From the NCBI RefSeq assembly GCF_030122805.1, contig NZ_CP126080.1:3973501-4037500 (forward strand): a stretch of 64,000 nt of DNA. The letters run 5' to 3'. Source of the stretch: Mesobacillus sp. AQ2. Lineage in GTDB: Bacteria; Bacillota; Bacilli; Bacillales; Cytobacillaceae. The notes under the pieces were generated by a model. It did not search any database. It had not been told where the DNA came from and saw only the letters and a list, made by a program, of their open reading frames with translations. How positions within the stretch are numbered: position 1 is the stretch's first letter; every line of letters starts with the position of its first letter. This document shows, piece by piece, positions 3,801 to 64,000 of this stretch. A program made the translations under genes and the position numbers.

Positions 3801-4790
3801 TACCCTTATGTGGATAGTTTGGTCTTCATAAGGGTGTTTCGGCTAGAATGGTACCCTTATGTGGATGGTTTTGCTTGTATAAGGATGTCTTTCCGCTTGA
3901 ATGGTGCCCTTATGTGGACAGTTTCGCCTGTATAAGGGTGTCTTTTGGCTTGAATGGTGTCCTTATGTGGACAGTTTCGCCTGTATAAGGGTGTCTTTCC
4001 GCTTGAGTGGTACCCTTATGTGGATAGTTTTGCCTGCATAAGGGTGTCTTTTGGCTTGAATGGTGCCCTTATGTGGACAGTTTCGCCTGCATAAGGGTGT
4101 CTCTCGATCGGAATGGTGCCCTTATGTGGACAGTTTCGCCTGCATAAGGGTGCCTTTCCGCTTGAATGGTACCCTTATGTGAACAGTTTTGCCTGCATAA
4201 GGGTGTCTCTCGATCGGAATGGTGCCCTTATGTGGACAGTTTCACCTGCATAAGGGTGTCTTTCCGCTTGAATGGTGCCCTTATGTGGACAGTTTCGACT
4301 GCATAAGGGTGTTTTTCCGCTTGAGTGGTACCCTAATGTGGACAGTTTTGCCTACATAAGGGTATCTTTCGACTTGAATGGTACCCTTATGTGGATAGTT
4401 TCGCCTGTATAAGGGTGTCTTTCCGCTTGAATGGTACCCTTATGTGGATGGTTTGGTCTTCATAAGGGTGTTTTTCCGCTTGAGTGGTACCCTAATGTGG
4501 ACAGTTTTGCCTGCATAAGGGTATCTTTCGACTTGAATGGTACCCTTATGTGGATAGTTTCGCCTGTATAAGGGTGTCTTTCCGCTTGAGTGGTACCCTT
4601 ATGTGGATAGTTTTGCCTGCATAAGGGTGTCTTTTGGCTTGAATGGTGCCCTTATGTGGACAGTTTCACTTGCATAAGGGTGTCTTTCCGCTTGAATGGT
4701 GCTCTTATGTGGACAGTTTCGCCTGCATAAGGGTGTTTTTCCGCTTGAGTGGTACCCTTATGTGGACAGTTTCGCTTGTATAAGGGTATC
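3801..4790. repeat. array A: about 19 tandem 53-bp hairpin units
   Basis: The interval between the convergent dacB and NERD genes is almost wholly a tandem array with 53-bp period. I count 19 units. Each contains an inverted repeat, ACCCTTATG followed about 16 bases later by CATAAGGGT, then a spacer such as GTCTTTCCGCTTGAATGG. Units vary at scattered positions (GTGGACAG/GTGGATAG, CCTGCAT/CCTGTAT), yet most stem arms are preserved. A 53-bp period is not a multiple of three, so it is not coding. No promoter or known repeat family is recognised. Confidence 0.95.
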
Positions 4791-4805
4791 ATTCTCCTTC
4801 AAGAA

Positions 4806-5720
4806 TCATTTATCAACAGTTATATAGCGGGAAGATGGGCCATGGCCCTCCAATGTATAGTTTTCTGAAAGAATGTTCCTAATGGCTTTCTTTGTTTTGA
4901 CAGACTTGCACCATTCATGGACCGTATTGACTGTTAAAGCTTCTTCCGGAAAAAGTAATTGAATATCTCTAACACTTCTCAATACTGCTTCATGTAAAGT
5001 TTCCCGTTTCCCGCAACTGGTGCATATTAGTGTTTTTCGAGTCACGATTGTATTCATGCTATGACAATGGGAACAGGTTATTCCCTTCTTCAATTTGTCG
5101 AAACTATATTGAGGCAGCCGGGAGTATGGCGAATCTTGAGTATGCAGGGAATGCAGACGTTCGGCTAGGTTTGTGTGGGTATTTTTTATTGGAGAAAATT
5201 GTTTTTGCAGGTTTTTAAGAAGTCTTGGAATCTGGTTCGGAAAGATAATTGGTAAATTACGCGGAGCTTGATAGAGGTAAAAATTGTTGTTCACAAAGAC
5301 CAGTGTTGATTCAATATTTATGTTGTACCCAAGGTCTCGCACCATCCTTCGCAGGAGAGACTCTGCCCTTTCCATTTGTATCAGAGGATTTTTAATTTCT
5401 ACTCCATTATGGGTGTACCACCTATCGCCTTCGATATAATAATCTCCCTCGAGATTCTTCACTTCGAACATGTGGATTATCTGGGACAGGAATAGGGAAT
5501 CGACTTGGAATTTCGTATTTCCATGTTCCAGCAGCAAATCGTTCAAAACCAGAAAGCCTTTTTCTACCTCCCCCATCCAATGATCAAAAATCACTTCGCC
5601 TTCATATCCTTTTTCCAGGTACAGATAGTTACTATGTTCCTTCGTAGACAATTTCATTCTTGAATTCAGCTTTCTCAGAATCTGTAGTTCCAACGATTCA
5701 ACACGCGATTTAACTATCAA
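4806..5720 (-). CDS. NERD-domain protein with C-terminal zinc-binding motif
   Basis: A 304-residue protein with a nuclease-related domain in the N-terminal half: an EGEVIFD segment, FQVDSLFL and FEVKN match the E/D/ExK pattern of this restriction-endonuclease-like fold. A C-terminal pair, CSHC and CTSC about 16 residues apart, should bind zinc. NERD proteins are inferred to act on DNA or RNA; the substrate is unknown. The start is TTG at 5720, with GGAGG at 5729-5733 spaced 8 bases; the ATG at 5735 overlaps the ribosome site. The 3' end abuts repeat array A. Confidence 0.82.
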   Translation of the reverse strand: MIVKSRVESLELQILRKLNSRMKLSTKEHSNYLYLEKGYEGEVIFDHWMGEVEKGFLVLNDLLLEHGNTKFQVDSLFLSQIIHMFEVKNLEGDYYIEGDRWYTHNGVEIKNPLIQMERAESLLRRMVRDLGYNINIESTLVFVNNNFYLYQAPRNLPIIFPNQIPRLLKNLQKQFSPIKNTHTNLAERLHSLHTQDSPYSRLPQYSFDKLKKGITCSHCHSMNTIVTRKTLICTSCGKRETLHEAVLRSVRDIQLLFPEEALTVNTVHEWCKSVKTKKAIRNILSENYTLEGHGPSSRYITVDK

Positions 5721-5833
5721 AGAACATTCCTCCATTCGTTATGTATTGCAATTAAATAGTATGTTTTATTCGATTATTTAACAAGGTTTTTTATCACTTT
5801 GTTTTTTGGCTTTAGAAAAGCAGCCTAATTGAG

Positions 5834-5871
5834 AAAAAGCTGGGCAGAATGAGAATCTGCACAGCTTTTTT
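5834..5871 (-). terminator. intrinsic terminator downstream of the LysM hydrolase gene
   Basis: Read on the - strand: AAAAAGCTG, internal GCAGA, loop, TCTGC, then CAGCTTTTT. This is a two-segment stem ending in a T run just after the hydrolase stop codon. Confidence 0.8.
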
Positions 5872-5874
5872 GAG

Positions 5875-6471
5875 TCACTTCGCAAATCTATGATTTCCGA
5901 TTGTCACGGTTGCTTCTCTTGAAAACACCCATTTGCTTACTGCGGTTTTCGGATTAAAGAAGAATAATGATCCATTCCCCTGTCCCCTGAATGCAATGGC
6001 TTCTTTAACGGCTTTCTTGGACTCTGCATCCGCTGCCTTGTTGATGGCGCCATTTTTCACGGGTGTGAATGCATAATAGCCGTTTGATTTTTGATAAATG
6101 ACTCCCTTGATTGTATTAGGGAATTCAGAGCTTGCTACTCTATTCAAGACAACAGTCGCTACTGCTACTTTCCCAGCATATGGCTCGCCTTTTGCCTCAG
6201 CGTGGACCAGTCTTGCAAGCAAGTCCTGATCTGCCGCAGATACCGGCGAGGCAGGAATCGTCAACTTTTGTCCTGGATATAGTAGATTGCTAGTCCGGTT
6301 ATTGGCCTTTTTCAATTGATTCACAGGCACTGCATTTTTACTCGCAATTCCCCAAAGTGTATCTCCTGTTTTCACCTGGTAAGTTGCCGCTTCTGCAGCC
6401 GCACCCATTGAAAATACAGATAGAGATACTGCAGCTGTGAGTGCTGCCAAAGTCTTTTTCATCTTTTTCAT
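5875..6471 (-). CDS. secreted LysM cell-wall hydrolase, SleB/CwlJ-type catalytic domain
   Basis: A 198-residue exported protein with a signal peptide ending near AAEAATY, one LysM module (about residues 30-72: YQVKTGDTLWGIA ... YPGQKLTIP), and a Hydrolase_2 (SleB-like) domain beginning LLARLVHAEAKGEPYAGKVAVA and containing the AVATVVLNRV stretch. It likely cleaves peptidoglycan glycan strands. It resembles B. subtilis YkvT more than SleB itself, because the binding module is LysM. ATG at 6471 follows GGAGG with 8-base spacing. Monocistronic. Confidence 0.9.
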   Translation of the reverse strand: MKKMKKTLAALTAAVSLSVFSMGAAAEAATYQVKTGDTLWGIASKNAVPVNQLKKANNRTSNLLYPGQKLTIPASPVSAADQDLLARLVHAEAKGEPYAGKVAVATVVLNRVASSEFPNTIKGVIYQKSNGYYAFTPVKNGAINKAADAESKKAVKEAIAFRGQGNGSLFFFNPKTAVSKWVFSREATVTIGNHRFAK

Positions 6472-6832
6472 TTTCCAAACCTCCAGTAGAGTTGCTCTTT
6501 TTCTCTACTAATAAGGCTAGCAGTTGTAACATATGGATTCATCGTCCAATAAGTGCCAATCAGGATAAACCTTCTCAATCTATTGATAACGCTTGAGTCT
6601 TTATAAACCTAGCAGTTTATACCATTCTTCTTCCCCTTCCTTCAATAGCCAGCACTGTAAGGATCCGGTTCATTTTTTACATAGTGTTACAGGTTTGTAA
6701 CTTTGTCAGAGGCATATTCAGTTGGATTGGAGAGATTCAAAAATGTCGACAGCTTTTCAGTCTTTTTTTATCTACCATATTTTGTGACAGGGCCATATTT
6801 ATAGTAATTATTTTAATGTATCACCTCCTTAT

Positions 6833-6847
6833 TTAAAATAATTATAA
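6833..6847. promoter_or_regulatory. PerR box upstream of the catalase gene
   Basis: TTAAAATAATTATAA matches the Bacillus PerR consensus TTATAATNATTATAA at 13 of 14 defined positions. It lies just upstream of the -35 element of the catalase promoter, so peroxide-dependent derepression is expected. The rest of the interval 6540-6830 shows nothing I recognise. Confidence 0.8.
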
Positions 6848-6854
6848 ATTAATA

Positions 6855-6882
6855 TTGATTTTTAATTGAAAGATGTTATCAT
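6855..6882 (+). promoter_or_regulatory. sigma-A-type promoter of the catalase gene
   Basis: TTGATT (-35, 6855-6860), 16-base spacer, TATCAT (-10, 6877-6882). The start codon follows 37 bases later behind a purine-rich ribosome site, AAGGCGGG. Confidence 0.6.
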
Positions 6883-6919
6883 TTAGTCAACAACAAATTT
6901 TAAAAAGGCGGGATGAAGA

Positions 6920-8380
6920 ATGAGTAATGATCAAAAGAAGAATCTGACTACAAGCTGGGGAGCACCGGTTGGGGACAACCAGAACTCCATGACAGCTGGC
7001 CAAAGAGGTCCAACTTTACTGCAGGACGTTCACCTTTTGGAAAAATTGGCGCACTTTAACCGCGAGCGTGTGCCTGAGCGTGTTGTGCATGCAAAAGGTG
7101 CCGGAGCACATGGATATTTTGAAGTGACAAATGATGTAACCAAATATACGAAGGCAGCATTTCTTTCAGAGGCAGGAAAGAAAACACCTTTATTCGTCCG
7201 TTTCTCAACGGTTGCTGGTGAACTGGGATCAGCTGATACAGTGCGTGACCCACGCGGATTTGCCGTAAAGTTTTATACAGAGGAAGGAAACTATGATATT
7301 GTCGGCAACAATACGCCGGTATTCTTCATCCGTGATGCGATAAAGTTCCCTGACTTCATCCATACACAAAAAAGGAACCCTCAGACTCACCTGAAGGATC
7401 CAAATGCAGTGTGGGATTTCTGGTCACTGTCACCTGAGGCGTTGCATCAGGTAACGATCCTGATGTCTGACCGCGGCATTCCGGCTACTATCCGCCATAT
7501 GCATGGTTTTGGCAGCCATACATTCAAATGGACTAATGCTGAAGGAGATGGCGTCTGGATCAAGTACCACTTCAAGACAGAGCAAGGCGTGAAGAACCTG
7601 ACTGCCGATGTAGCGGCACAAATCGCCGGCGAAAACCCGGATTTCCATACAGAAGATTTATTCAATGCCATCGAAGCGGGAGACTTCCCTGCCTGGAAGC
7701 TTTATGTCCAGATCATGCCATTGGAGGATGCGAATACGTACCGTTTTGATCCATTCGATGTTACAAAGGTTTGGTCACAAAAAGACTACCCATTAATTGA
7801 AGTGGGCCGCATGGTCTTGGACCGTAACCCGGAAAATTACTTTGCGGAAGTTGAGCAGGCAACCTTCTCTCCTGGAACGCTGGTACCTGGTATCGATGTA
7901 TCGCCAGACAAAATGCTACAGGGCCGCCTGTTCGCTTATGCTGATGCGCACCGATACCGTGTAGGCGCAAATCACAATCATTTGCCGATCAACAGGGCTA
8001 GAACAGAAGTCAATTCCTACCAGCGTGACGGCCAGATGCGCTTTGATGGAAATGGCGGCAAATCTGTAAACTACGAGCCTAATAGTTTCGGAGGACCAAC
8101 AGAAGTGAATGAGCAAAAACAGGCAGCATTTCCTGTCAGCGGTGTGGCCGAAAACGCGGGCTATGATCACCATGACCATTACACACAAGCCGGTGACCTG
8201 TACCGCCTGATGAGCGAAGAAGAACGAGCTCGCCTGGTTGCTAATATCGTCACAGCAATGAAGCCAGTTGAACGCGATGATATCAAACTCCGCCAGATCG
8301 GCCACTTCTATAAGGCAGATTCTGAGTACGGAACCCGTATCGCGCAAGGATTGGGACTGCAGGTGCCACAGGAAGTTTAA
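6920..8380 (+). CDS. katA: monofunctional haem catalase
   Basis: Converts hydrogen peroxide to water and oxygen in the cytoplasm. The 486 residues are typical of small-subunit (clade 3) catalases. The distal histidine lies in [14 protein letters not shown], the catalytic asparagine region in [11 protein letters not shown], and the proximal haem tyrosine in [12 protein letters not shown]. The NADPH-binding type C-terminus is present and there is no extra flavodoxin-like domain. The gene is monocistronic with a PerR box upstream and a 15-bp perfect terminator stem downstream. It heads a stretch of oxidative and quinone stress genes. Confidence 0.97.
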
Positions 8381-8385
8381 AAGGT

Positions 8386-8427
8386 ATGATAAAACGGATG
8401 TCCTATATTGGGCATCCGTTTTATCAT
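8386..8427. terminator. terminator after catalase
   Basis: A perfect 15-base inverted repeat, ATGATAAAACGGATG and CATCCGTTTTATCAT, with a 12-base loop. T-rich arms at both ends make it plausible on either strand. Confidence 0.85.
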
Positions 8428-8449
8428 AAATAAGCAAATGGCCTTTGAA

Positions 8450-8695
8450 TGGTTCTTTTTGGACAAACTCAGGATTATTTCCTGAAAAAGCGTCCGTTAG
8501 AAGAGCCCTATCGGACAAATTCATGATAATTTTCCCGAAAAGTGTCCGTTACAAGACCTCTATCGGACATTCTCTAGAAGGGCCCTATCGGACATATTCA
8601 TGGTGATTTTCCCGAAAAGTGTCCGTTACAAGACCTCTATCGGACAAGCTCACGACGCTTTTCCCAAAAAGTGCCCCTTACACGAACTCTATCAA
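8450..8695. repeat. array B: 4-5 units of a 52-bp hairpin repeat
   Basis: Units of the form AAAAGTGTCCGTTACAAGAC ... CTATCGGACA recur at about 8491, 8543, 8620 and 8672. The step is 52 bp, except for one 77-bp step that contains a 25-bp partial duplication (around 8565-8595). The inverted repeat is GTCCG/CGGAC. The array lies between the convergent catalase and azoreductase genes. The last unit has decayed (GTGCCCC, ATCAAAC). Confidence 0.88.
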
Positions 8696-8741
8696 ACAAT
8701 CACACATCAATTAACTTCAGGAATCCCTCTAATAAATAGAA

Positions 8742-8765
8742 AAGCAGGCCATCTCTGACCTGCTT
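8742..8765 (-). terminator. terminator of azoR
   Basis: AAGCAGG and CCTGCTT form a 7-bp stem with a 10-base loop, followed on the - strand by a T-rich TTCTATTTATT. Confidence 0.6.
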
Positions 8766-8784
8766 GTTCTTGTTAAATCTTCTA

Positions 8785-9420
8785 TTAGAATGTATGTGCC
8801 AGATCCTTCGCACGGGCGATTCCGTTTTCTTTGATTTCCTGTGCTTTTTCTGGGGTTGCGTTATGACCTTCAAGAACAAGGGATTCAAATGAAGGTACTC
8901 CGAAGAAGTTCATGATTGTTTCGATGTAGCGATTTCCCATTTCCATGCTTGCTGCTGGTCCTTCTGAATAGTATCCGCCGCGAGCCTGGATGTGCAGGGC
9001 TTTTTTATCGGTCATTAAACCAACAGGGCCTTCTTGTGTATATTTGAATGTCTTGCCTGCGACTGCTACGGAATCCAGGTATGCTTTCATGACTGGCGGG
9101 AATGAGAAGTTCCAAAGCGGTGTCACGAAAACGAATTTGTCTGCTGCTGTGAACTGGTCAACAAGCTCTGCAAGACGTCCGATTTTTGCCTGTTCTTCTG
9201 CAGTTAGGGCTGAAAATCCAGTGCCTTTCTGCAGTTTTCCCCAGCCGCCTAATACATCGGCATCGATGTGTGGGATGTTTTCTTTGAATAGATCCAGATG
9301 AATGACTTCATCGTTCTGGTTTTGCTCCTGGTATGTGTCAATGAAGGCTTTTCCTGCTGACAAACTGAATGACTGTTCTTCAGTAAGTGGGTGTGCTGTG
9401 ATATATAAAACTTTTGCCAT
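8785..9420 (-). CDS. azoR: FMN-dependent NADH-azoreductase
   Basis: A 211-residue flavodoxin-fold NAD(P)H:quinone/azo reductase that carries out two-electron quinone reduction in the cytoplasm. The N-terminal [19 protein letters not shown]-phosphate loop and the [18 protein letters not shown] segment are characteristic of the AzoR/AcpD family. It lies downstream of the FMN reductase and catDE on the same strand but has its own promoter (TTGACC-17-TAATAT) and an overlapping palindrome (9472-9502). In B. subtilis azoreductases belong to the YodB and MhqR quinone-response regulons, which fits this context. Confidence 0.93.
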
Positions 9421-9471
9421 GATGTGATTCCACCTATTCCTTTTTTATTCTCCAAGCTATTTTCATGAAAA

Positions 9472-9502
9472 ATCTCGAAGTAAAAATAGCTTACTTCGAG
9501 AT
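9472..9502. promoter_or_regulatory. 31-bp palindrome over the azoR start site (MhqR-type operator candidate)
   Basis: Perfect 12-base arms, ATCTCGAAGTAA and TTACTTCGAGAT as read on the - strand, with a 7-base centre. It begins at the azoR -10 element. The end half-sites ATCTCGAA/TTCGAGAT equal those I recall for the B. subtilis MhqR operator, but lie 15 bp apart instead of adjacent. On the - strand it is followed by TTTTTC, so it could also act as a terminator for the upstream FMN reductase gene. Confidence 0.6.
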
Positions 9503-9529
9503 ATTACCCCGTTTAAAAAAGCAGGTCAA
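9501..9529 (-). promoter_or_regulatory. azoR promoter
   Basis: On the - strand: TTGACC (-35, 9524-9529), 17-base spacer, TATAAT-like TAATAT (-10, 9501-9506). Confidence 0.65.
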
Positions 9530-9543
9530 TTAATTTGCTCATT

Positions 9544-10092
9544 CTATCTTAAAGTCTTTAATGCTCCGCTCCATGCCACTACTTCATCCAGCATTGCATT
9601 TACATTATCACCATGAAGGGCTTGCGGCTTAAATTCTGTTCCGTTTTCAAAGTCAGTAAATAGAGATAATGTTGGATGTGTTCGGACATCGGCTATTTTT
9701 AATTCTCCGCAGATTCCTCTTAAATGTTCAGCTGCTCTTGCGCCGCCTGTTGAACCATAGCTGACGATTCCGGCTGCTTTGTTATTCCATGCCTCGCGTG
9801 CAAAATCAAGCGCGTTTTTCAATGCTCCGGTAATACTGTGATTGTATTCCTGAACAATGAACACGAAACCATCGAGGTTTGAAAGCTTTTCATTCCAGGC
9901 AGCAATCCCCGGCTCAGTTCCATCCGTTGTTCCCAAAAATGGCAGATCGAAGTCAGCTATATCGACGATTTCATAATTTGCGTCCCCGCGCTTGTCAGCC
10001 AGTTCCTTAACCCATTCGCCAACTTGCGGGCTCACACGGCCCTGTCTTGTGCTTCCTAAAATAATCCCGATATTCATTTTTTCTGCAGTCAT
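9544..10092 (-). CDS. NADPH-dependent FMN reductase (flavodoxin-fold oxidoreductase)
   Basis: A 182-residue NAD(P)H:FMN/quinone reductase family protein. The FMN-binding loop is IILGSTRQGRVSPQVGEWV near the N-terminus, and the VQEYNHSITGALKNALDFA block is typical of YhdA/ArsH-type reductases. ATG at 10092 has a strong AAGGAGGG with 7-base spacing. An alternative in-frame ATG at 10143 (MGLLNKLFGN) also has a GGTGGAG site, so a longer form with a 17-residue leader is possible. It sits 79 bases downstream of catE on the same strand and is likely part of the quinone-detoxification operon. Confidence 0.88.
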   Translation of the reverse strand: MTAEKMNIGIILGSTRQGRVSPQVGEWVKELADKRGDANYEIVDIADFDLPFLGTTDGTEPGIAAWNEKLSNLDGFVFIVQEYNHSITGALKNALDFAREAWNNKAAGIVSYGSTGGARAAEHLRGICGELKIADVRTHPTLSLFTDFENGTEFKPQALHGDNVNAMLDEVVAWSGALKTLR

Positions 10093-10171
10093 GATTTTTC
10101 CCTCCTTCGTTTTGTTCCCAAATAGTTTGTTTAATAGACCCATTCTCTCCACCGCCTGTTATCTTTTTCTA

Positions 10172-21862: not shown

Positions 21863-21926
21863 CCTTTGGCAAACAGTCAACCAATACCATTCACCGATAT
21901 GTTCTATACTCATCCGATCTTTTATT

Positions 21927-21998
21927 GGCAACCCGACTATCCTAGCAGCATGGCCTTAGACTCGTGGCTTTGCGTCCTCACCTTTCGATAAGTTTGCC
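21927..21998 (-). ncRNA. cyclic di-GMP-I (GEMM) riboswitch aptamer
   Basis: Read on the - strand the aptamer begins GGCAAACTTATCGAAAGGTG, continues ACGCAAAGCCACGAGTCTAA and ends GATAGTCGGGTTGCC. These are the GEMM hallmarks: the GAAA tetraloop in P2, GACGCAAAGCCACG...CTAAGG, and the pairing 5' GGCAA with 3' TTGCC. A sigma-A promoter precedes it and an intrinsic terminator follows, so it appears to be a transcription-terminating switch. Confidence 0.92.
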
Positions 21999-22016
21999 TT
22001 TTTCAGTTCTACTTAA

Positions 22017-28094: not shown

Positions 28095-28530
28095 GCCACT
28101 TTAAAAATTAGGGTTCCTATAAGCTGTATTGATGCCACGACCCTACTATATTCTTACAAATCACAGCTCCAATACGCCCTATTGGTGACAAGATTCTCCT
28201 ATATTGTTACAAATCAAAGTCCCAATACACTCTATTGGCGTCACAGTTCTCCTATATTCTTACAAATCAAGGCCTCAATACGCTCTATTGGTGACACAAT
28301 TCTCCTATATTCTTACAAATCAAGGCCCCAATACGCTCTATTGGTGACACGATTCTCCTATATTCTTACAAATCAAGGCCCCAATACGCTCTATTGGTAG
28401 CCCAATTCTCCTATATTCTTACAAATCAAGGTCCCAATAGGCTCTATAGGTGACCCAGTTCTCCTATATTCTTACAAATCAAGGCTCCAATAACCTCTAT
28501 TGGTGACAACTATTATATTCTTACAAACAA
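28095..28530. repeat. array C: about 7-8 units of a 53-bp hairpin repeat
   Basis: Units such as CTCCTATATTCTTACAAATC followed by AAGGCCCCAATACGCTCTAT and TGGTGACA recur every 53 bp. The inverted repeat CCAATA-CGCTC-TATTGG gives a tight hairpin. The terminal copies are degenerate. An open frame spans part of it, but 53 is not a multiple of three, so the repeats change frame and coding is unlikely. The array lies between the response-regulator promoter and the 3' end of the MBL-rhodanese gene. Confidence 0.93.
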
Positions 28531-37700: not shown

Positions 37701-37719
37701 ATCGTAAATATCTATACGA

Positions 37720-37820
37720 CTTATCTTTCAGAATGAAACCATTCTGTAGGAAGTGGCACCTTTCCATAAAGGAGGTTGCCGGACGTCATCGGGCCTAATC
37801 CCTCAGTCTCTCTTGATAAG
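37720..37820 (-). ncRNA. SAM-I (S-box) riboswitch
   Basis: On the - strand: CTTATCAAGAGAGACTGAGG, then GGCCCGATGACGTCCGGCAACC, AAGGTGCCACTTCC and the closing GAAAGATAAG, which pairs with the 5' CTTATC. These are the canonical S-box elements. High SAM should favour the terminator at 37668-37700 and switch off metNIQ. Confidence 0.96.
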
Positions 37821-37850
37821 TAACTTATTAAATTCATTTTGATAATTGAA

Positions 37851-39071: not shown

Positions 39072-39270
39072 TTCACCTTCTCTTCTGTTTTTAGCCCTAT
39101 GCAGTCTCTTTCTATAATTCTTATTTCTTTTATTTTATTATAGACTCATATATTGGAAACTGCATGTAAATTAAAGGGATCATATCACCGTCGGGAATCA
39201 TTTATCATAATTTCCGCCATTTTATATGCACTGATTTACTGCGCAACTCATTATTTTGGCGATTTTTTCA

Positions 39271-39372
39271 TTTTTTCGAACACTTTTTAGATTATTTCGA
39301 CCAAATTTCCGGATATATCGACCACATTTTGGATTATTTCGACCACTTTTTCAAATAATTCGACCAAGTGTC
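39271..39372. repeat. array E: five copies of a 21-bp TTCGACCA repeat
   Basis: Units like GGATTATTTCGACCACTTTT recur with TTCGA at about 39275, 39297, 39318, 39339 and 39360, a regular 21-bp step. The first copy is degenerate (TTCGAACAC). There is no long inverted repeat within a unit. It lies 5' of the chr pair and 3' of the chemoreceptor gene. The rest of 39072-39270 is AT-rich with no recognised feature except the probable chr promoter. Confidence 0.85.
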
Positions 39373-44388: not shown

Positions 44389-44447
44389 AAAAGATTTCAG
44401 CCTTGTGGACTTTTGAATAGTCGTCACACAAGCTTCATCTTCCTCTT

Positions 44448-44575
44448 CTGTAACGCTTGCGAAGTTAGCTGTCGGATTAGGACTCAGAATAGCCCTGCCT
44501 TTTGAAAAGGCTTCACCCCAAGTGGACGCATCCACAATATTGGTTCCCCCGCTCCTGCCGGATTCAGCGATTTAG
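44448..44575 (-). ncRNA. ydaO/yuaA-type cyclic di-AMP riboswitch
   Basis: On the - strand: CGCTGAATCCGGCAGGAGCG, GGGGAACC, TTGGGGTGAA, AGGCAGGGCTATTCTGAGTC, CTAATCCGACAGCTAACTTC and GCAAGCG. These are the conserved ydaO blocks in order. It is located upstream of ktrB, as in B. subtilis yuaA(ktrA), so c-di-AMP should repress K+ uptake. Confidence 0.95.
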
Positions 44576-44625
44576 AAATATGAAACTCATTCAGTTTTTT
44601 GTTCCAGAAATCTGAAACTGTTGTA

Positions 44626-47614: not shown

Positions 47615-47880
47615 TTCACTCACTCCCTATCAGAATGTTTCTATTTCCTAAATAATATAAAATATTCAGTATATTCTAAATAGGGATAACGGCTTATTTG
47701 ATAGGTTTTCCGATGTGCCGAAAGGCTTAATTTCCAGATCCACCATATAAGTCATTATTATTCTTCCATAATAATCCATTAATAATATTCAGAAAAAATC
47801 TGGCTAAGAGAGCTTCTTATCGTTTTTCTATTATGACTCTTTTCTTTTCTCTCCGAAAGCTATCAAATTACAACAGGGTT

Positions 47881-48760
47881 CTTGACAGCTTTGTGCCTTC
47901 CCTCTTAAAACCTGTCAAAGTAACAATGGTTTCTTGACAACTTCGAGCCCCCACTCTTGAAACCTGTCAAGATTAACACGCTTTCTTGACAACTTCTAGC
48001 TTCCCCTCTTAAAAACTGTCAAAATAACGATGGTTTCTTGACAGCTTCGAGCCTCCACTCTTGAAACCTGTCAGAATAAACACGATTTCTTGACAACTTC
48101 GAGCCTCCCCACGTGAAACCTGTCAAAATTAACACGCTTTCTTGACAACTTTGAGCTTCCCCTCTCAAAACCTGTCAAAATAACGATGGGTTCTTGACAG
48201 CTTCGAGCCTCCCCACTTAAAACCTGTCAAAATAACGAAGGGTTCTTGACAGCTTCGAGCCTCCACTCTTAAAACCTGTCAAAATAACGAAGGGTTCTTG
48301 ACAGCTTCGAGCCTCCACTCTTAAAACCTGTCAAAATAACGATGGTTTCTTGACAACTTAGAGTCTCTCCACGTGAAACCTGTCAGAATAAACACGCTTT
48401 CTTGACAACTTCGAGTCCCCACTCTTGAAACCTGTCAAAATTAACACGCTTTCTTGACAACTTCTAGCTTCCCCTCTTAAAACCTGTCAAAATAACGATG
48501 GTTTCTTGACAGCTTCGAGCCTCCCCTCGTGAAACCTGTCAGAATAAACACGCTTTCTTGACAACTTCGAGCCCCCACTCTTGAAACCTGTCAAAATTAA
48601 CACGCTTTCTTGACAACTTCTAGCTTCCCCTCTCAAAACCTGTCAAAATAACGAAGGTTTCTTGACAACTTTGAGCTTCCCCTCTCAAAACCTGTCAAAA
48701 TAACGAAGGTTTCTTGACAGCTTCGAGCCTCCACTCTTGAGACCTGTCAAAATAACCATC
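47881..48760. repeat. array D: 17 tandem 52-bp hairpin units containing TTGACA on both strands
   Basis: CTTGACA occurs at 47881 and then every 51-52 bases up to 48713, 17 copies. A unit runs CTTGACAGCTTCGAGCCTCC, ACTCTTAAAACCTGTCAAAA, TAACGAAGGGTT. TTGACAG pairs with CTGTCAA either within a unit or with the neighbour. Each arm is also a perfect -35 hexamer, on + (TTGACA) and on - (TGTCAA read backwards). Fifty-two is not a multiple of three. The array lies between the 5' end of the protease gene and the 3' end of tauE. The region 47620-47880 is AT-rich promoter sequence without other features. Confidence 0.95.
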
Positions 48761-58014: not shown

Positions 58015-58015
58015 A

Positions 58016-58198: not shown

Positions 58199-58210
58199 AA
58201 AATAAAAGAA

Positions 58211-58246
58211 AAATCCTAATGCCCTTTTAACAAGAAGCATTAGGAT
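58211..58246 (-). terminator. terminator of the LysR gene
   Basis: AAATCCTAATGC ... GCATTAGGATTT, perfect 12-base arms overlapping the last codons; on the - strand it is followed by TTCTTTTATT. Confidence 0.85.
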
Positions 58247-59129
58247 TTTCATCTAGATTTCTAATAAAGTTCCATACTCTTTCATGGAGACTTGACTTGA
58301 ACTGTTTATCCTTCCTTAACAGGTAGAATGGACGGGAACGGTCCCTGTCTATAAAATGACTGACAATGAGCTGCCTGGATTGAACCTCCGGACAGATGGC
58401 CAGCTTGGAAAAAATTGCGACGCCAAGACCATTCTTCACCCCTTCCTTGATGAGCGTATTGCTGTTATAAACAAGGACGGACTTGGGGTCGATGTTCAGG
58501 CATCTCCATAAATCAAGCGTAGCCTGTCTCATAGCGCAGCCTGGTTCGCGGATCAGCCAGGTCATTTCTTCTAGTCTTTCAGGATCCTGGTTTTCCGGAT
58601 TAACTCTGAGCTGCGGGGACACGCCCAGAACGAGCAGGTCATCATAGAATTCATGGGAAATAAAATCATAGCGTCCAGCTTGTCCCTCAACAAGAGCAAG
58701 GTCAATTTCGGATGCATAAAGCAAATCGGTTATTTCAACCGAAGTACCGATTGTGACCTGGATTTGATGGCTCGCTATATCAGGGTTCAATTTTATAATA
58801 TCCTGTATCATTTTGGATATAAGGCATTCACCAATTGTATTGCTGCAGCCAATTTTAATTGTTTCGCTTGAATTCCCTTCAGCAAGCAGGCTTTCCAGTT
58901 TATCATTTAACGCCAGCAGCTGCTGGCCATGCTCATACAGGGTTTTGCCTGCCTCTGACAGCCTTATTTTACGGTTGGCCCTTATGAACAACTGCTTATT
59001 GTAGTAGGTCTCCAGCTGGCTGATTTGATGGCTGACTGCAGGCTGCGAAAGGTTCAGCATCTTCCCCGCCTGGGAGAAGCTTTCATATTTTGCAGCCGCT
59101 ATGAATGTCTTAAGATGTTCAAGATTCAA
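58227..59129 (-). CDS. LysR-family transcriptional regulator
   Basis: A 300-residue LTTR with N-terminal winged helix (HLKTFIAAAKYESFSQAGKMLNLSQPAVSHQISQLE) and a CysB/CysL-like effector domain (IKIGCSNTIGECLISKMI). It resembles regulators of sulfur or cysteine metabolism (CysL/YwfK type), which would suit the sulfur genes here, but the target is not shown. TTG start with GGGGTG 8 bases upstream. Divergent from the 61-residue gene with only 40 bases between starts. Confidence 0.87.
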   Translation of the reverse strand: MNLEHLKTFIAAAKYESFSQAGKMLNLSQPAVSHQISQLETYYNKQLFIRANRKIRLSEAGKTLYEHGQQLLALNDKLESLLAEGNSSETIKIGCSNTIGECLISKMIQDIIKLNPDIASHQIQVTIGTSVEITDLLYASEIDLALVEGQAGRYDFISHEFYDDLLVLGVSPQLRVNPENQDPERLEEMTWLIREPGCAMRQATLDLWRCLNIDPKSVLVYNSNTLIKEGVKNGLGVAIFSKLAICPEVQSRQLIVSHFIDRDRSRPFYLLRKDKQFKSSLHERVWNFIRNLDENPNASC

Positions 59130-59169
59130 TATGATCGCACCCCTTTACTAATAGATTGGAGGGAATAAA

Positions 59170-59355
59170 ATGAAGAAATTAGATATCGCCGTTACAGTTA
59201 TCGTATTATCTGTATTTATTTTTGGTTTAATGTACTTCACAAAAGACGATTCAATTAGCTATCGTGATGTAAAATTTGAAATCGCGTCGATGGTCATTTT
59301 ATCAACCGTATCACTGTTCACTTATTTCGGGATTAGAAGAAATTTAAATCATTAA
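59170..59355 (+). CDS. 61-residue two-helix membrane protein, unknown
   Basis: Two hydrophobic segments (about 6-23 and 38-54) separated by a charged loop (TKDDSISYRDVKFE), ending IRRNLNH. GGAGGG precedes ATG 59170, and a terminator follows. No family recognised. The divergent layout makes it a candidate target of the adjacent LysR regulator. Confidence 0.62.
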   Translation: MKKLDIAVTVIVLSVFIFGLMYFTKDDSISYRDVKFEIASMVILSTVSLFTYFGIRRNLNH

Positions 59356-59404
59356 TTGGCATTATACCACACAGGGTTTAAATGTGTAGATAAAAAAACA
59401 TAAG

Positions 59405-59445
59405 GATAAAACCTGGGAGCTCTCCTGGGTTTTATTTTTTTTACC
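59405..59445 (+). terminator. terminator of the 61-residue gene
   Basis: AAAACC-GGGAG-CTC-CTCC-GGGTTTT (approximate pairing) followed by ATTTTTTTT. Confidence 0.78.
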
Positions 59446-59507
59446 CAGACAGTATACTAACAAGCGAGCGGGATTATGAATTGGTTTACATTTGAGAGAG
59501 AAAAAAA

Positions 59508-59536
59508 TTGAAAGTCACACTCAGTCATTATACAAT
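59508..59536 (+). promoter_or_regulatory. promoter of the ccdA operon
   Basis: TTGAAA (59508-59513), 17-base spacer, TACAAT (59531-59536). Confidence 0.7.
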
Positions 59537-59547
59537 ATATTACGTTA

Positions 59548-59565
59548 TATACCAACAGGGGTATA
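59548..59565. promoter_or_regulatory. CsoR/CstR-type operator TATACC-N6-GGTATA upstream of ccdA
   Basis: TATACCAACAGGGGTATA, perfect 6-base arms, about 11 bases downstream of the -10 and 75 bases before the ccdA start. Same half-sites and spacing as 13959-13976 and the persulfide operon site. Confidence 0.68.
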
Positions 59566-59639
59566 ATAAGGAGTTCTTCTTCATTAATCCTTAACAAAGA
59601 CAACCCAATATAGTTTATAGAAAAGGAGTGAATATAAAT

Positions 59640-60353
59640 ATGTCAGATATCGGTTTATTTTTTGCTTTTACCGCCGGGATTTTATCATTTTTCTCACCAT
59701 GCGTGTTCCCTCTCCTCCCTGCTTACATAACTCATTTAACAGGAGGCAAAATTGAGGGGTCAAAGGTCGCAGTCGACCGGGCAACACTTTTCACCCGTTC
59801 ATTCGGATTTATCATCGGTTTTAGTATAATTTTTATTGTCATGGGGGCTTCGGCATCATTCCTGGGACAGGTTTTCGCAAATTACAGGACAATCGTCATG
59901 CAGATTGCCGGTTTACTGATCATCATTTTCGGATTGCAGATGGCAGGTTTGCTGAATATTAAATTCCTGATGATGGAGAAAAAGGTCCATTCTGAAACAA
60001 AATCAAAGGGCGCTTTCGGTTCTGTCTTTCTAGGAATGGCGTTTGCAAGCGGATGGTCACCTTGTGTAGGATTGGCACTATCATCCATCTTGCTGCTGGC
60101 CAGCTCGTCCGATACTTTATATCAGGGAATGTACCTGCTGACTTCTTACTCTCTTGGAATGGCCGTGCCTTTCCTGGTCATTTCTTTCGTCATTTCCTAT
60201 TCATTAAAAGCAATCAAGAAGATCAATAAATATCTGTCTAAGCTCGCACTCGTAAATGGTATGATTATGGTAGGCATGGGCTTTCTGGTCCTGTCAGGCC
60301 AGATGCAGAAAATCAGTGCATGGCTGTCAGCTTACAGTTTATTTGGATTCTGA
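59640..60353 (+). CDS. ccdA: CcdA/DsbD-like thiol-disulfide electron transporter
   Basis: A 237-residue membrane protein with six hydrophobic helices. The redox cysteines are C21 in FFSPCVFPLLPAYITHL and a second in GWSPCVGLALSS. It carries reducing equivalents from cytoplasmic thioredoxin to extracytoplasmic partners such as the TlpA/ResA-like protein at the end of this operon. ATG 59640 is chosen over the GTG that overlaps the GGAG ribosome site. Confidence 0.93.
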   Translation: MSDIGLFFAFTAGILSFFSPCVFPLLPAYITHLTGGKIEGSKVAVDRATLFTRSFGFIIGFSIIFIVMGASASFLGQVFANYRTIVMQIAGLLIIIFGLQMAGLLNIKFLMMEKKVHSETKSKGAFGSVFLGMAFASGWSPCVGLALSSILLLASSSDTLYQGMYLLTSYSLGMAVPFLVISFVISYSLKAIKKINKYLSKLALVNGMIMVGMGFLVLSGQMQKISAWLSAYSLFGF

Positions 60354-60398
60354 TTTTAAAAGGATCCACCTTAATGCCTGAAGGAGTGACTTATTTTT

Positions 60399-61094
60399 GT
60401 GAAGAAAGAACTGATCGGCAAAAGTGTATTGGTAGTCGAAGACGATCCCAAAATAAGGACGCTTGTCAAAATCTATTTAACGAATGAGGGCTATGAGGTT
60501 CTCGAAGCGGACAATGGAATTGACGCCCAGGAGATGATTGAAAAATATGACCCTTGCATCCTTATACTAGACCTGATGCTTCCCGGCAAAAGCGGAGAAG
60601 AAATATGCTGCTGGCTGCGGAACGATTTGGAAAGCATGATGCCTGTCATCATGCTGACAGCAAAAGCTTCGGAAAAGAGCCGGATTGAAGGCTTTAAGCT
60701 TGGCGCTGACGACTATGTGGTAAAACCATTCAGTCCGGCCGAGCTGATGGTCCGGATTGAAGCGGTGTTACGAAGGACGGCAAGCAGATGCGGGAAACTG
60801 ACTTTTACAGGTCTTACCCTCAAACCAGCAAAAGGCCAGGCGCTGGTTGATGGGGAAACACTCGACTTGACAAATTTTGAGTTCAGGCTTCTCCATATGT
60901 TCATGCAGCATCCTGGACAAATTCTTTCGCGGACGCAAATACTCGATACCATTTATGAAAATAACGAAAAGGCCGTGACGGAGCGGACAATCGATGTACA
61001 TATCAAGAATCTCCGTGAGAAAATCAAAGAAAAAACGCCGAAGGATTATATTCAGACAGTAAGAGGAATGGGGTATAAATTTGCGGCGAATTAA
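60399..61094 (+). CDS. OmpR-family response regulator (ccdA operon)
   Basis: A 231-residue regulator. Receiver: EDD at 14-16, phospho-acceptor D58 in LILDLMLPGKSG, conserved K in VVKPFSP. Winged helix: LTNFEFRLLHMFMQHPGQILSRTQIL. GTG start with AAGGAGTG upstream. It overlaps the kinase start by 14 bases. Confidence 0.93.
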   Translation: MKKELIGKSVLVVEDDPKIRTLVKIYLTNEGYEVLEADNGIDAQEMIEKYDPCILILDLMLPGKSGEEICCWLRNDLESMMPVIMLTAKASEKSRIEGFKLGADDYVVKPFSPAELMVRIEAVLRRTASRCGKLTFTGLTLKPAKGQALVDGETLDLTNFEFRLLHMFMQHPGQILSRTQILDTIYENNEKAVTERTIDVHIKNLREKIKEKTPKDYIQTVRGMGYKFAAN

Positions 61095-62148
61095 AAGCAT
61101 CACGAACTTGTTGTTATCGAAGTTGGTAGCGGTCAACAGTATTGTCATTCTGCTGGTCATCATGCTGGCAGGAATATCTGTAAAAGACTATGCCTGCTTC
61201 CTGGTCAATCATGAACAAGTGACCGGGCAGCAGCTCGTTGAAACCCTGAATTCATTCCTGATCAAAGTAAGCATCATCGCTTTCATCGCCGCCGGGCTTT
61301 TGCATTATTTTTCGGTAAAAAGAATTGTGAATCCAGTTAAGGCGATGGCTGCTGCCGCAATTCAGGTGAAAACAGGAACAATCCCTTCGAAGATTGATGT
61401 ACAGGCAGGCGGTGAACTTGGCGAACTCGTAACAAATTTCAATGCCATGACCGAAACCCTATCGGTTGTCCAAACAAGGCGTGAAGAAATGTTAAGGGAT
61501 ATCGCCCATGAATTAAGGACTCCGCTGACGAATATCAATGGGTATCTAGAAGCTCTTCACAGCGGTGTATTGGAAGGTGACCAGGAACTTTTCGGGTCTC
61601 TTCTCGAAGAATCCAGACGGATCACAAGAATTGTTGATTTGATTGCTGAGCTTGATGCATGGAGCCAGGAGTCCCATTTACCCGAAAAACAATTCGAGGA
61701 AATCGATATGAAACAAGCATTGGCTGAATCACTTGCAGCGTTCCACTTGAAGCTATCCGGCAGGTTCGAGACATTGAGCCAGCAGATTGAACACGCTCCT
61801 GTTCTTGGCCATAAAGACGGCTTAAAGCAAGTCCTGGCCAATCTGCTGCAAAATATTATCGATTATGACACTGGCGGGCATCTTGCCATAGTGGGACAGC
61901 GTAGTGATTCAGAATACAGAGTGACTTTTTCCCATGAAGGTACCTATATTGACCCGGATAATAAAGAGCTGATTTTTGAACGGTTTTACAGGCTTGAAGA
62001 ATCCCGCAGCACAAAAGCGGAGGGGGCCGGCCTCGGCCTGGCGATTGCCAAAAGTATCATGAATGCCCATCAGGGACATATTGGCCTTGATACAGATGGG
62101 CATAATCACTCATTTTGGATCAGAATCCCCCTCCATTCCGTTTCTTAA
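61081..62148 (+). CDS. short sensor histidine kinase (ccdA operon)
   Basis: A 355-residue kinase. TM1 is at about 15-35, with an extracytoplasmic loop of only about 20-25 residues holding one Cys (DYACFLVNHE), then TM2 (about 60-77), HAMP, HisKA with H143 in DIAHELRTPLTNING, and HATPase with NLLQNIIDYDTGG and GAGLGLAIAKS. The tiny sensor loop suggests membrane or intramembrane sensing. TTG start inside the regulator gene; no strong ribosome site, so translation is probably coupled. Confidence 0.9.
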   Translation: MRRIKSITNLLLSKLVAVNSIVILLVIMLAGISVKDYACFLVNHEQVTGQQLVETLNSFLIKVSIIAFIAAGLLHYFSVKRIVNPVKAMAAAAIQVKTGTIPSKIDVQAGGELGELVTNFNAMTETLSVVQTRREEMLRDIAHELRTPLTNINGYLEALHSGVLEGDQELFGSLLEESRRITRIVDLIAELDAWSQESHLPEKQFEEIDMKQALAESLAAFHLKLSGRFETLSQQIEHAPVLGHKDGLKQVLANLLQNIIDYDTGGHLAIVGQRSDSEYRVTFSHEGTYIDPDNKELIFERFYRLEESRSTKAEGAGLGLAIAKSIMNAHQGHIGLDTDGHNHSFWIRIPLHSVS

Positions 62149-62215
62149 TCAATCCTTAACAATACGATTACATACTGGACTGAAAAGTAGTTTTCGAATT
62201 AAAGGAGCGATTTTG

Positions 62216-62629
62216 ATGGAATTCACTTATTATAATGAGAAACTTATCGGACAGATGGAATATGGTTTCCTTCCAATATCCCCGAACGCAGAATTGGGAT
62301 ACAGACCTATGGAACTGTTCGTATCCTCCTTGACTGGCTGCAGTACTGCGGTGCTGGCAAATATTCTGGACAAGAAGAGAATAGACTATAAAAGAATCGA
62401 CGTTAATGTATCAGCAGTCAGGAATCCAGAAGAGGCAAACCGGATTGAACGGTTGACATTCGATGTTGCCGTGCAGACCGACACATTGGATAAGGCGAAG
62501 CAGGCTGAGAAAATTGCCGCCCTTGTCCTGAAAAATTGCGGCATGATTCAATCGGTCATTGGAAGCATCGACATCCGATACCAGATTGAATTCACGTCAG
62601 ACCAGCCCAAAAAAGGTGATGTTGCTTGA
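62216..62629 (+). CDS. OsmC/Ohr-family peroxiredoxin-like protein
   Basis: A 137-residue OsmC-type thiol peroxidase with the two family cysteines, C42 in SSLTGCSTAV and C108 in LKNCGM. It may reduce organic hydroperoxides or persulfides. AAAGGAGCG precedes ATG 62216. It overlaps the next gene through TTGA. Confidence 0.9.
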   Translation: MEFTYYNEKLIGQMEYGFLPISPNAELGYRPMELFVSSLTGCSTAVLANILDKKRIDYKRIDVNVSAVRNPEEANRIERLTFDVAVQTDTLDKAKQAEKIAALVLKNCGMIQSVIGSIDIRYQIEFTSDQPKKGDVA

Positions 62630-63237
62630 ATTATATAACGATTGGCAGATTCACGGTGCCAGCAGATTTGCTCGCGGCGTTTGCTGCCATATTTATCGGC
62701 GCCCTGATCTACCGGGCCAGGGAAAAAAAGAGCATAGGTGATTGGTATTGGAACAGCTTTTTCATATACATAGCCATCTACAAGCTGAGCTATGTCGTTT
62801 TCAATTTCAAGATGTTCCTTGACACCCCCTTCTCCCTCCTTTATTTTAATGGTGGCACAGAAGGCCAGATCCTTGCTTTTGCAGGCATTGCGGCCTATTT
62901 ATTTTGGATTGCAAGGAAAAAGGAAAGCATGGTCAAAGTGACCGAGTATCTTCCGGCTTATTTCCTTTTCTTTTTGCTCTATTGGACCGGACTATTCGCA
63001 TTTTCAGAGGAGTTCATCCCTGCTGGAGTGCAGGCACTAATGGCGTTGATCTTTGGAGTGTTTTATTTTAAAAGAATGGAGCTTTCGAAGGAATATGCTA
63101 TATTATTCTTGATGCTTGAAGCACTCGTTCTCAGTCTTTTTTCGAATTTGCTTTCAGCGGAAAACCTGCTGATCTTTGCACTTGGAATTTACTTGCTAGT
63201 ATTTCAGGGTTTAAATAAGGAGGAATTACAGCATTGA
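62626..63237 (+). CDS. polytopic membrane protein of unknown function (ccdA operon)
   Basis: A 203-residue protein with about six hydrophobic helices. No family recognised with confidence; the arrangement is faintly like prolipoprotein diacylglyceryl transferase-type scaffolds, which I do not rely on. TTG start with AAGGTGATG upstream. It overlaps the flanking OsmC and TlpA-like genes by 4 bases each (TTGA), so it is clearly part of the operon and a candidate partner of CcdA or the thioredoxin. Confidence 0.75.
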   Translation: MNYITIGRFTVPADLLAAFAAIFIGALIYRAREKKSIGDWYWNSFFIYIAIYKLSYVVFNFKMFLDTPFSLLYFNGGTEGQILAFAGIAAYLFWIARKKESMVKVTEYLPAYFLFFLLYWTGLFAFSEEFIPAGVQALMALIFGVFYFKRMELSKEYAILFLMLEALVLSLFSNLLSAENLLIFALGIYLLVFQGLNKEELQH

Positions 63238-63821
63238 ATAAAAATCTTTTATCATTCGCGATTTTAGCATTGGCTGTCGTCATATTGGTCGTGAATATCT
63301 GGAAACCAGGTTCGACCGAGAGCGAAAAGAAAACAACAGCACCGACTGAGGAAGCCGTAGAAACAACTGAAGATATCCCGGGCGCTAAGCTGTCTTCATT
63401 AAGGGAAGGCGCTGAGGCACCTGATTTTGAACTGAAAACCCTGGGAGGAGAGACAGTCAAGCTGTCCGATTACCGCGGCAAAAGAGTGATCCTGAACTTC
63501 TGGGCAACTTGGTGCCCTCCATGTAAGGCCGAAATGCCTCATATGCAAAATTTCTATGAAGAATATAACGATCAGGGCGTAGAAATCCTAGCTGTCAATT
63601 TGACCAACATGGACAAAGGCGTCGAAGAAGTGCAAAAATTCGTTGATGAATATGGCTTAACCTTTACCATCCCTTTGGATGAGGCAGGAAACGCAGGAAC
63701 AACCTATCAGGCCTTCACCATCCCAACCAGCTACATCCTCGATGAAAAAGGCGTCATAACAAAGAAAATTGTCGGACCGATGGATGAAAAAATGATGAAG
63801 GAACTTACAGGGGTAAAATAA
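63234..63821 (+). CDS. membrane-anchored TlpA/ResA-like thiol-disulfide oxidoreductase
   Basis: A 195-residue protein with one N-terminal helix (about 6-23), a linker rich in T and E, and a thioredoxin fold with the redox motif WCPPC (C94, C97) in NFWATWCPPCKAEMPHM and the cis-proline in AFTIPTSYI. It likely reduces cytochrome c haem-site thiols or other extracytoplasmic thiols, powered by CcdA. TTG start after AAGGAGG. Confidence 0.92.
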   Translation: MNKNLLSFAILALAVVILVVNIWKPGSTESEKKTTAPTEEAVETTEDIPGAKLSSLREGAEAPDFELKTLGGETVKLSDYRGKRVILNFWATWCPPCKAEMPHMQNFYEEYNDQGVEILAVNLTNMDKGVEEVQKFVDEYGLTFTIPLDEAGNAGTTYQAFTIPTSYILDEKGVITKKIVGPMDEKMMKELTGVK

Positions 63822-63824
63822 TAG

Positions 63825-63854
63825 AAAGTCACGGCTCAGGCCGTGACTTTTTTG
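63825..63854 (+). terminator. terminator of the ccdA operon
   Basis: AAAGTCACGGC, TCAG, GCCGTGACTTTTTTG. Confidence 0.92.
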
Positions 63855-63856
63855 TT

Positions 63857-64000
63857 TATGATGGACAGGATTCAGGAAGCGAACAGCAAAAGTGTCCGTC
63901 ATCAAGCCTATGATGGACAGAAATAAGAAAACATTCAGCAAAGGTGTCCGTCTTCTGGTTATATTGTAGGTGATGCTCTGACTGAAAGGTCTTTTTTGGA
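63857..64000. repeat. array F: start of a 52-bp hairpin repeat, cut by the window end
   Basis: GTGTCCGTC occurs at 63892 and 63944, a 52-bp step, each preceded by a CAGCAAAAG/CAGCAAAGG context; GATGGACAG closes the hairpin (GTCCGTCA with TGATGGAC, one G-T pair). A partial unit precedes them at 63860. The layout AAAGTGTCCGT...GGACA is shared with array B, with different stem bases. Confidence 0.75.

Follow-up and report, generated by a model that had tools for sequence, protein, structure and literature searches.

Intergenic tandem arrays with near-helical periods and replication-linked polarity in Mesobacillus sp. AQ2 and other genomes of its order

Tandem arrays lying between genes were analyzed in a 64-kb stretch of the Mesobacillus sp. 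AQ2 chromosome (positions 3,973,501-4,037,500 of the 4,803,959-base genome, one contig; hereafter the window), in which an earlier note, made from the sequence alone, had listed six arrays, A to F, with periods close to whole turns of the DNA helix. The arrays are part of a larger set that is phased at 52-53 or 21 bp, contains palindromes with covarying arms in its main class, keeps a fixed inner geometry, has a purine-rich strand oriented with replication, turns over at fixed loci and is spread patchily within one order of Bacillota. We tentatively interpret the arrays as helically phased DNA sites for a putative architectural or topological factor, whose function is likewise putative.

The period was determined with Tandem Repeats Finder (TRF) in a genome sample totaling 1.244 Mb, which combined the window with 59 pieces of 20 kb spread evenly along the chromosome; one further piece, fetched for a known match (L090), was excluded from the sample statistics. 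After collapsing, 80 arrays were obtained, of which 24 had a period of 52 bp, nine of 53 bp, 21 of 21 bp and seven of 20 bp, with any other period found at most twice. Of the 34 intergenic arrays 150 bp or longer, 32 had a period of 52 bp (23 arrays) or 53 bp (nine), the others being one array at 21 and one at 40 bp; the periods cluster and are not broadly spread. The 52/53-bp arrays occupy 17.7 of the 1,244 kb sampled (~ 1.4% of the DNA), and we estimate that the whole genome holds a hundred or more intergenic arrays, nearly all spaced at five or two helical turns. An intergenic array of 40-bp units with two TCGCTATA motifs each (L047 5719-6086; 9.2 copies, 95% matches) is a four-turn member of the same ladder of periods.

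A lag spectrum of repeated 8-mers in 754 intergenic segments, which is independent of the repeat finder, gave the same spacing. Lags of 52 and 53 occurred in 34 and 16 segments, 104 and 106 in 28 and 12, 21 in 23, 41 in 15, and 62 and 63 in nine each, over a background of about 3-4 segments at most other lags. The main clusters (20-21, 40-42, 51-53, 62-63 and 103-106) correspond to 2, 4, 5, 6 and 10 turns at 10.5 bp, and the highest lags off this ladder were 36 (nine segments) and 71 (eight segments). As a coding control, the first 300 bases of 1277 called genes (calls by a custom script, 83% coding) produced peaks chiefly at multiples of three, with 52 and 53 not raised (7 and 5). A coding-repeat origin was dropped, since 52 and 53 are not multiples of three and none of the 33 sampled 52/53-bp arrays lies mainly inside a called gene; five are partly overlapped by called open reading frames. 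A 9-bp unit, CCAACAGGA, repeated about 159 times within a called gene (L039 6186-7620), is a separate case that probably encodes a repetitive protein. Outside the genus, a genome from a different family of the order (G248) was sampled in ten evenly spaced pieces totaling 200 kb, and 4 of its 15 arrays had a period of 52 bp. One near-helical spacing constraint on differing sequences is supported both genome-wide and in other genera.

The 33 arrays fall into at least four stem families, and the possibility that all arrays form one family was rejected. GACA/TGTC accounts for 18, CCCTTAT/ATAAGGG for seven (all of 53 bp), and CACCAATA/TATTGGTG and GCCCGAA for three each, leaving two unclassed, one of which (L059) appears GACA-like by eye. 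In the window, arrays B, D and F share the GACA/TGTC palindrome, A and C represent two other families, and E belongs to the 21-bp family; array A has 20 further matches in the genome (64-84% identity) at about 15 places. The description of the arrays as mostly unrelated was therefore too strong, and independent amplification of locus-specific seeds is not supported, as a few families recur at many loci. The locus-specific part of the arrays is mainly the spacer.

In the GACA family, 37 array consensuses share GACA and TGTC (both set by the search pattern), TTT/AAA close inside them and a T four bases outside, with the spacer otherwise variable. In a geometry scan that tolerated cores of 20-30 and linkers of 14-24, a core of 25, a linker of 19 and a period of 52 were found in 166 of 174 neighboring pairs from the genome itself, 141 of 148 from the same genus and 110 of 114 from other genera (417 of 436 pooled). 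Covariation was scored on exact tandem pairs only, with permutations that ignore the relatedness of the arrays. For the linker (TGTC-n19-GACA), this gave 126 Watson-Crick pairs in the 22 arrays from other genera compared with a permuted mean of 77 and a maximum of 108 in 2000 permutations, 81 compared with 61.7 in 17 arrays of the genome sample (p = 0.0065), and 91 compared with 77.5 in 20 arrays of the same genus (p = 0.059). No covariation was found about the spacer axis (66/75, 71/82 and 92/98 observed/expected pairs). A hairpin across the wide 25-bp spacer was rejected, given 66 pairs where 75 were expected; at position 5/27, 24 of 37 arrays have G..G and only five have a base pair. Since the linker arms covary and the spacer axis does not, the unit is a 27-bp short-loop palindrome, with TGTC...GACA ends and covarying upper arms, followed by a 25-bp spacer, together making 52 bp. 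Covarying arms also indicate that two-fold symmetry, as in dimer binding or a cruciform, outweighs sequence. The same layout can be read by eye from the folds of the CCCTTAT and CACCAATA families. Of the inverted repeat formerly ascribed to each array, the short-loop form across the linker stands and the wide form does not; array E consists of direct repeats in which no significant inverted repeat or palindrome was found. Two levels of tandem amplification occur in another genome (G274), where a 311-bp higher-order repeat (L167 8720-9492; 2.5 copies, 98% matches) contains 52-bp GACA units.

The 20/21-bp class has motifs that include ATCGACCAC; motif copies recur exactly every 21 bp, separated by about seven variable bases. 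A search with its CGACCA pattern matched 16 of 397 genomes of the order, including 8 of 10 Mesobacillus, and the reversed control matched 12 of the same 397, which leaves the signal firm in Mesobacillus only. In one genome (G362) the reversed control matches 36 and 25 times, which reflects that genome's own frequent 21-bp-spaced repeat with another motif. Elsewhere (L169, from G208), five 21-bp arrays, three of them TCGCGCGA-like, lie in one 19-kb stretch close to a 52-bp array.

A new observation is the polarity of the arrays, whose purine-rich strand is the leading strand of replication. With the change of sign in guanine-cytosine (GC) skew near 2.5 Mb marking the two arms of the genome, leading-strand purine content averaged 0.601 over the 33 arrays, exceeding 0.5 in 32, and their leading-strand skew of A over T was 0.229. 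Other intergenic DNA (390 segments in four classes) had purine contents of 0.512-0.530 and A over T skews of 0.008-0.026, and plain mutational bias was rejected as the cause, since this DNA on the same strand is almost without such skew. The purine content was 0.58, 0.52, 0.64, 0.58, 0.62, 0.65, 0.51, 0.55 and 0.48 in arrays between convergent genes and 0.55, 0.50, 0.60 and 0.64 between divergent genes, while one of the two arrays between genes opposing the fork was purine-rich on the leading strand (0.68, 0.50).

Orientation of individual units gave a similar result. The polar core GACAGG-n18-AAAGCTGTC was mapped in the complete genome G018 on the assumption of a terminus near the middle of the chromosome, and it was on the + strand at 13 of 15 left-half loci and on the - strand at 8 of 9 right-half loci among the matches listed (21 of 24 loci in total, counted by eye for loci to 3.66 Mb). 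In the genome of the window, all matches listed were +, up to 1.69 Mb in an inferred order of positions. With local GC skew as the proxy for the leading strand, and with 20 of 30 stretches chosen for a GACA array, the purine-rich strand was the leading-type one in 15 of 16 arrays of other genera and in 7 of 8 of G248, together 22 of 24. Polarity is weaker in the 20/21-bp class (16 of 22), to which array E, on the + strand of the right arm, belongs.

Comparison of orthologous loci indicated that the array at a fixed locus can change in copy number, in family and perhaps in class while the period is maintained. Of 16 relatives, 13 have an array of 52-bp units at the D locus by TRF; of the exceptions, G001 retains exact 52-bp spacing in three units that have diverged, G014 has two degenerate-looking units (by eye), and G002 has no array there and one on the opposite side of the same gene. 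At the A locus, a 53-bp array was present in 11 of 16 relatives and absent from G018, G007 and G002; the contig of G005 ends there, and G014 instead has TTCCGGAAA-like motifs about 21 bp apart in a row (by eye). The C locus carried an array in 8 of 12 loci at 81% identity or more, with 52-bp TATTGGTG units in four, 53-bp units in the same-species draft, CCCTTAT units in two (L092 and L097) and another 52-bp unit in one. The same locus can bear another family in another species, a further point against locus-specific seeds. Two records encoding close relatives of one protein of the window (95% and 74%), titled Chryseobacterium sp. ISL-80 (L092) and Pseudomonas sp. ISL-84 (L115), appear to be mislabeled.

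This turnover bears on a functionless origin, in which replication slippage and unequal crossing-over generate the arrays as a by-product, hairpins do no more than promote the slippage and the period is a legacy of the ancestral units. Such an origin would account for copy numbers that differ between close relatives (16.9 units at the D locus here and 13.9 in the same-species draft G061, where a draft may collapse repeats), and the C array, with 53 bp in its own species and 52 bp in four relatives, shows that units change together. The replication polarity also fits a fork-linked process. We nevertheless consider this origin quite improbable, since exact spacing survives divergence of the units, as at the D locus of G001 and in 21-bp arrays with variable inner bases, and is maintained in several families and in other genera with indel-shifted units rare. 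In addition, the palindrome arms covary, the 21-bp arrays consist of non-identical units at exact 21-bp steps, and in G045, a genome from which the GACA pattern is absent, none of nine arrays in 200 kb had a period of 52-53 bp.

The gene context was compared with that of intergenic gaps of at least 80 bp. The arrays lie between tandem genes in 19 cases, convergent genes in nine and divergent genes in four, with one unclear, compared with 399 tandem, 92 convergent and 145 divergent background gaps, and the placement of all arrays at a 3' side proposed earlier is therefore a tendency only. Of 39 gene ends next to arrays, 22 have a terminator-like hairpin between them and the array (control, 148 of 346 ends), indicating that many arrays lie outside the transcript. 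This is relevant to a role at the RNA level, in which chains of hairpins in 3' ends or read-through RNA would stabilize, attenuate or terminate transcripts, perhaps as directional terminators of head-on transcription. Short-loop hairpins with covarying stems placed 3' of genes are consistent with such a role, as are array A, which abuts both convergent stop codons, and the four A-locus orthologs without a 53-bp array (L151, L157, L162 and L163), which carry an ordinary terminator-like hairpin in its place (by eye). Terminator-like matches were also found within 13 of the 33 arrays, on the fork-opposing strand in 12, although such matches are expected from T-rich composition as well. An RNA-level role is nonetheless unlikely in our view, because a terminator-like hairpin so often precedes the array, terminator-like matches are missing from 20 of 33 arrays, fold z-scores do not differ between strands, and purine polarity follows replication even beside convergent or divergent genes; moreover, helical phasing would be unnecessary for RNA, and hairpins are absent from the 21-bp class. 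The z-scores separate DNA from RNA weakly because near-palindromes fold alike on both strands.

The distribution of the main family was assessed with the tandem pattern GACA-n25-TGTC-n19-GACA-n25-TGTC and its reversed form as control. Among 397 genomes of the order, 67 had matches, representing 28 of 135 genera, and the control gave zero matches in every genome; the genome of the window alone contains 571. In a draw of 249 genomes across the phylum, three of which belong to the order, only the genome of the window matched, leaving 0 of 246 outside the order. A looser single-palindrome pattern was near control in 2 of 19 same-genus genomes (G008 and G011), and G011 nonetheless has a short D array. 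Viral contigs contained nine single GACA places, near chance by a rough estimate (plasmids and annotated phages lay outside the search), and a phage origin was considered unlikely on that basis.

A patchy distribution is also what selfish repeats would produce. In that explanation, elements like the repetitive extragenic palindromic (REP) sequences and bacterial interspersed mosaic elements (BIMEs) are recognized at the palindrome by a transposase, which carries copies of units from locus to locus, tandem growth follows, and the period is a property of the enzyme complex. The recurrence of families at many loci, the replacement of TATTGGTG units by CCCTTAT units at the C locus, the presence in 28 of 135 genera with G008 and G011 at background within the genus, and an intergenic placement with few divergent cases, as described for REPs (PMC3733652), all agree with it. 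However, array abundance is not correlated with Y1_Tnp, the domain of the REP-associated tyrosine transposases (RAYTs), which is present in 50 of 61 genomes regardless of arrays and had no match in the array-rich G006 (543 tandem cores), G014 (68 tandem cores) and G015 (304 palindromes), of which G006 and G014 are drafts whose gaps could hide the gene and G015 is one contig. Viral contigs have only the nine single places, and neither the replication polarity nor the 21-bp class is explained, making selfish propagation an improbable account of the arrays.

Two dissimilar classes are phased, distances within the unit are exact, and arrays are frequently found past a terminator, all of which indicates action on duplex DNA rather than on RNA; we tentatively favor phased DNA sites on that account. 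Such sites would recur every five helical turns (52-53 bp), or every two turns in the 21-bp class, a spacing that would place every site on the same helix face. In the main class the site would be the short-loop palindrome, suited to binding by a symmetric protein or to cruciform extrusion, and the purine-rich spacer between sites would supply a direction following replication. The arrays lie mostly 3' of genes, often beyond the terminator, where a factor such as a nucleoid protein, a gyrase-type enzyme or a condensin loader may bind cooperatively along the array. Copy number would shift by recombination or slippage, units would be homogenized within an array, and families would spread between loci. 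A broader version, in which the arrays form a helically phased, replication-polar system that organizes the chromosomes of many bacteria of the order, with the palindrome families and the 21-bp class interchangeable and read directionally by a dedicated architectural or topological machine, is rather doubtful.

Several observations weigh against phased DNA sites. A three-turn peak is absent from the intergenic lag spectrum (6, 2 and 4 segments at lags 30-32), exceptional periods occur (a 54-bp array in G248, L181, and others of 58, 60 and 66 bp), and the steps between box centers within a unit, 29 and 23 bp, are not whole turns. The 21-bp class has no palindrome, the covariation is weaker in the two same-genus sets, its permutations take no account of relatedness, and the variation of arm sequence within one genome is hard to reconcile with recognition by one sequence-specific protein. 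A co-occurrence search, which covered Y1_Tnp only, found no binding protein. The gene-context bias is marginal (chi-square p = 0.05; convergent versus rest p = 0.036). Other points concern RNA: of the terminator-like matches within arrays, 11 are in array A; those in 12 of the 13 arrays concerned, counted without a shuffled control, face transcription opposing the fork, which fits an RNA-level role; and the mean RNA fold z-score of the 33 arrays is -3.21 for the leading strand and -3.17 for the lagging strand, the leading strand being more stable in 22, with some arrays (e.g., L032 10989 and L049 4131) lacking a significant fold.

The arrays of the window, for which TRF was run over the whole stretch and GACA boxes were placed separately, are listed in Table 1. 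The periods of A, C, D and E given in the earlier note were recovered by TRF, whereas array B is irregular (TRF periods 52 and 77) and array F comprises two copies only. The GACA boxes of array B lie at 8462, 8514, 8566, 8591 and 8643, in steps of 52, 52, 25 and 52.

Table 1 Tandem arrays of the 64-kb window (positions within the window)
Array	Position	Strand	Unit and copies	Family or motif	Source
A	3791-4794		53 bp x 19.0	CCCTTAT/ATAAGGG	TRF
B	8461-8646; right-hand end to 8699			GACA/TGTC	TRF; right-hand end by eye
C	28146-28509		53 bp x 6.9	CACCAATA/TATTGGTG	TRF
D	47879-48756		52 bp x 16.9	GACA, TTGACA..TGTCAA form	TRF
E	39263-39366	+	21 bp x 5.0, 73% matches	degenerate units with TTCGACCAC motif	TRF
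F	63857-63955		two units, boxes 63864 and 63916, 52 bp apart	GACA

Array A is flanked by convergent S13 peptidase and NERD genes that end 6 and 12 bp away, and array B by convergent catalase and flavodoxin-like genes with terminator-like hairpins on both sides. Array D lies between a terminator of the TauE gene and the region upstream of the M6 peptidase gene, with its purine-rich strand being the - (leading) strand, and array F lies immediately beyond a terminator-like hairpin (by eye). Immediately upstream of the M6 peptidase gene, at about 47624-47690, is an imperfect inverted repeat, TCCCTAT ... ATAGGGA (~ 63 bp), which is conserved and also present in the seven relatives whose sequences were inspected there. 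An Rfam search over the window returned three riboswitches only, all on the - strand: cyclic di-AMP (ydaO/yuaA) at 44438-44579, S-adenosylmethionine (S box) at 37718-37822 and cyclic di-GMP-I at 21924-22008.

A spacing rule that outlives sequence suggests that something reads the helix face of the DNA, and the replication polarity is a strong clue to what that may be. They make the question of what extragenic repeats do directly testable. If confirmed, the arrays would be a Gram-positive element of chromosome architecture comparable to the enterobacterial BIMEs. The arrays could also serve as fast-evolving typing markers.

No described family of 52-bp phased arrays in this order was matched in the literature, taken as open-licence papers only, in agreement with the earlier note. 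Like minisatellites, variable number tandem repeats (VNTRs) and mycobacterial interspersed repetitive units (MIRUs), the arrays are intergenic and tandem, change in copy number and have homogenized units. In ordinary VNTRs the period differs from locus to locus, whereas nearly all long intergenic arrays here share one period, together with covarying palindromes and a fixed inner geometry. Clustered regularly interspaced short palindromic repeats (CRISPR) similarly alternate a palindromic part with a spacer of fixed length, but the spacers here are repeated within an array rather than unique, and there are many loci with variable stems. Two 66-bp arrays in L196 look CRISPR-like and are a separate matter. 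Array orientation tracks replication direction, as it does for the polar chromosome sequences recognized by SpoIIIE (SRS), the FtsK orienting polar sequences (KOPS) and Chi. Unlike these, the spacers of the 37 GACA consensuses showed no common short motif, and the arrays were rejected as carriers of the SRS octamer GAGAAGGG, as it occurs once in 17.7 kb of arrays.

BIMEs consist of palindromes at regular spacing and in alternating orientation and are bound by gyrase, IHF or Pol I; with regard to the alternation, the palindromes here are near-symmetric and the spacers share one direction along an array. REP and BIME elements (PMC2817692, PMC3733652) are 20-40 bp palindromes with more than 100 copies per genome, intergenic, chromosome-wide and clustered, with several families per genome, lying mostly between tandem and convergent genes and with proposed roles in chromosome organization and termination. 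The arrays resemble them in being small palindromes of high copy number, intergenic and with few divergent cases. A REP is defined by an unpaired GTAG or CGTC (TGTC in many repeats) at one end of the stem (PMC3733652), a tag that is absent here, where TGTC and GACA, both prescribed by the search pattern, pair with each other at the base of the stem. Membership of the REP/RAYT system was rejected given this absence and the array-rich G006, G014 and G015 without Y1_Tnp. The main family is also limited, in the samples used here, to one order of Bacillota, and the word Firmicutes is absent from the text of PMC3733652. By layout, the nearest known kind is the REP/BIME palindromes, from which the arrays differ in forming head-to-tail arrays of 52-53 bp across several families, in their replication polarity and in their palindrome-free 21-bp class.

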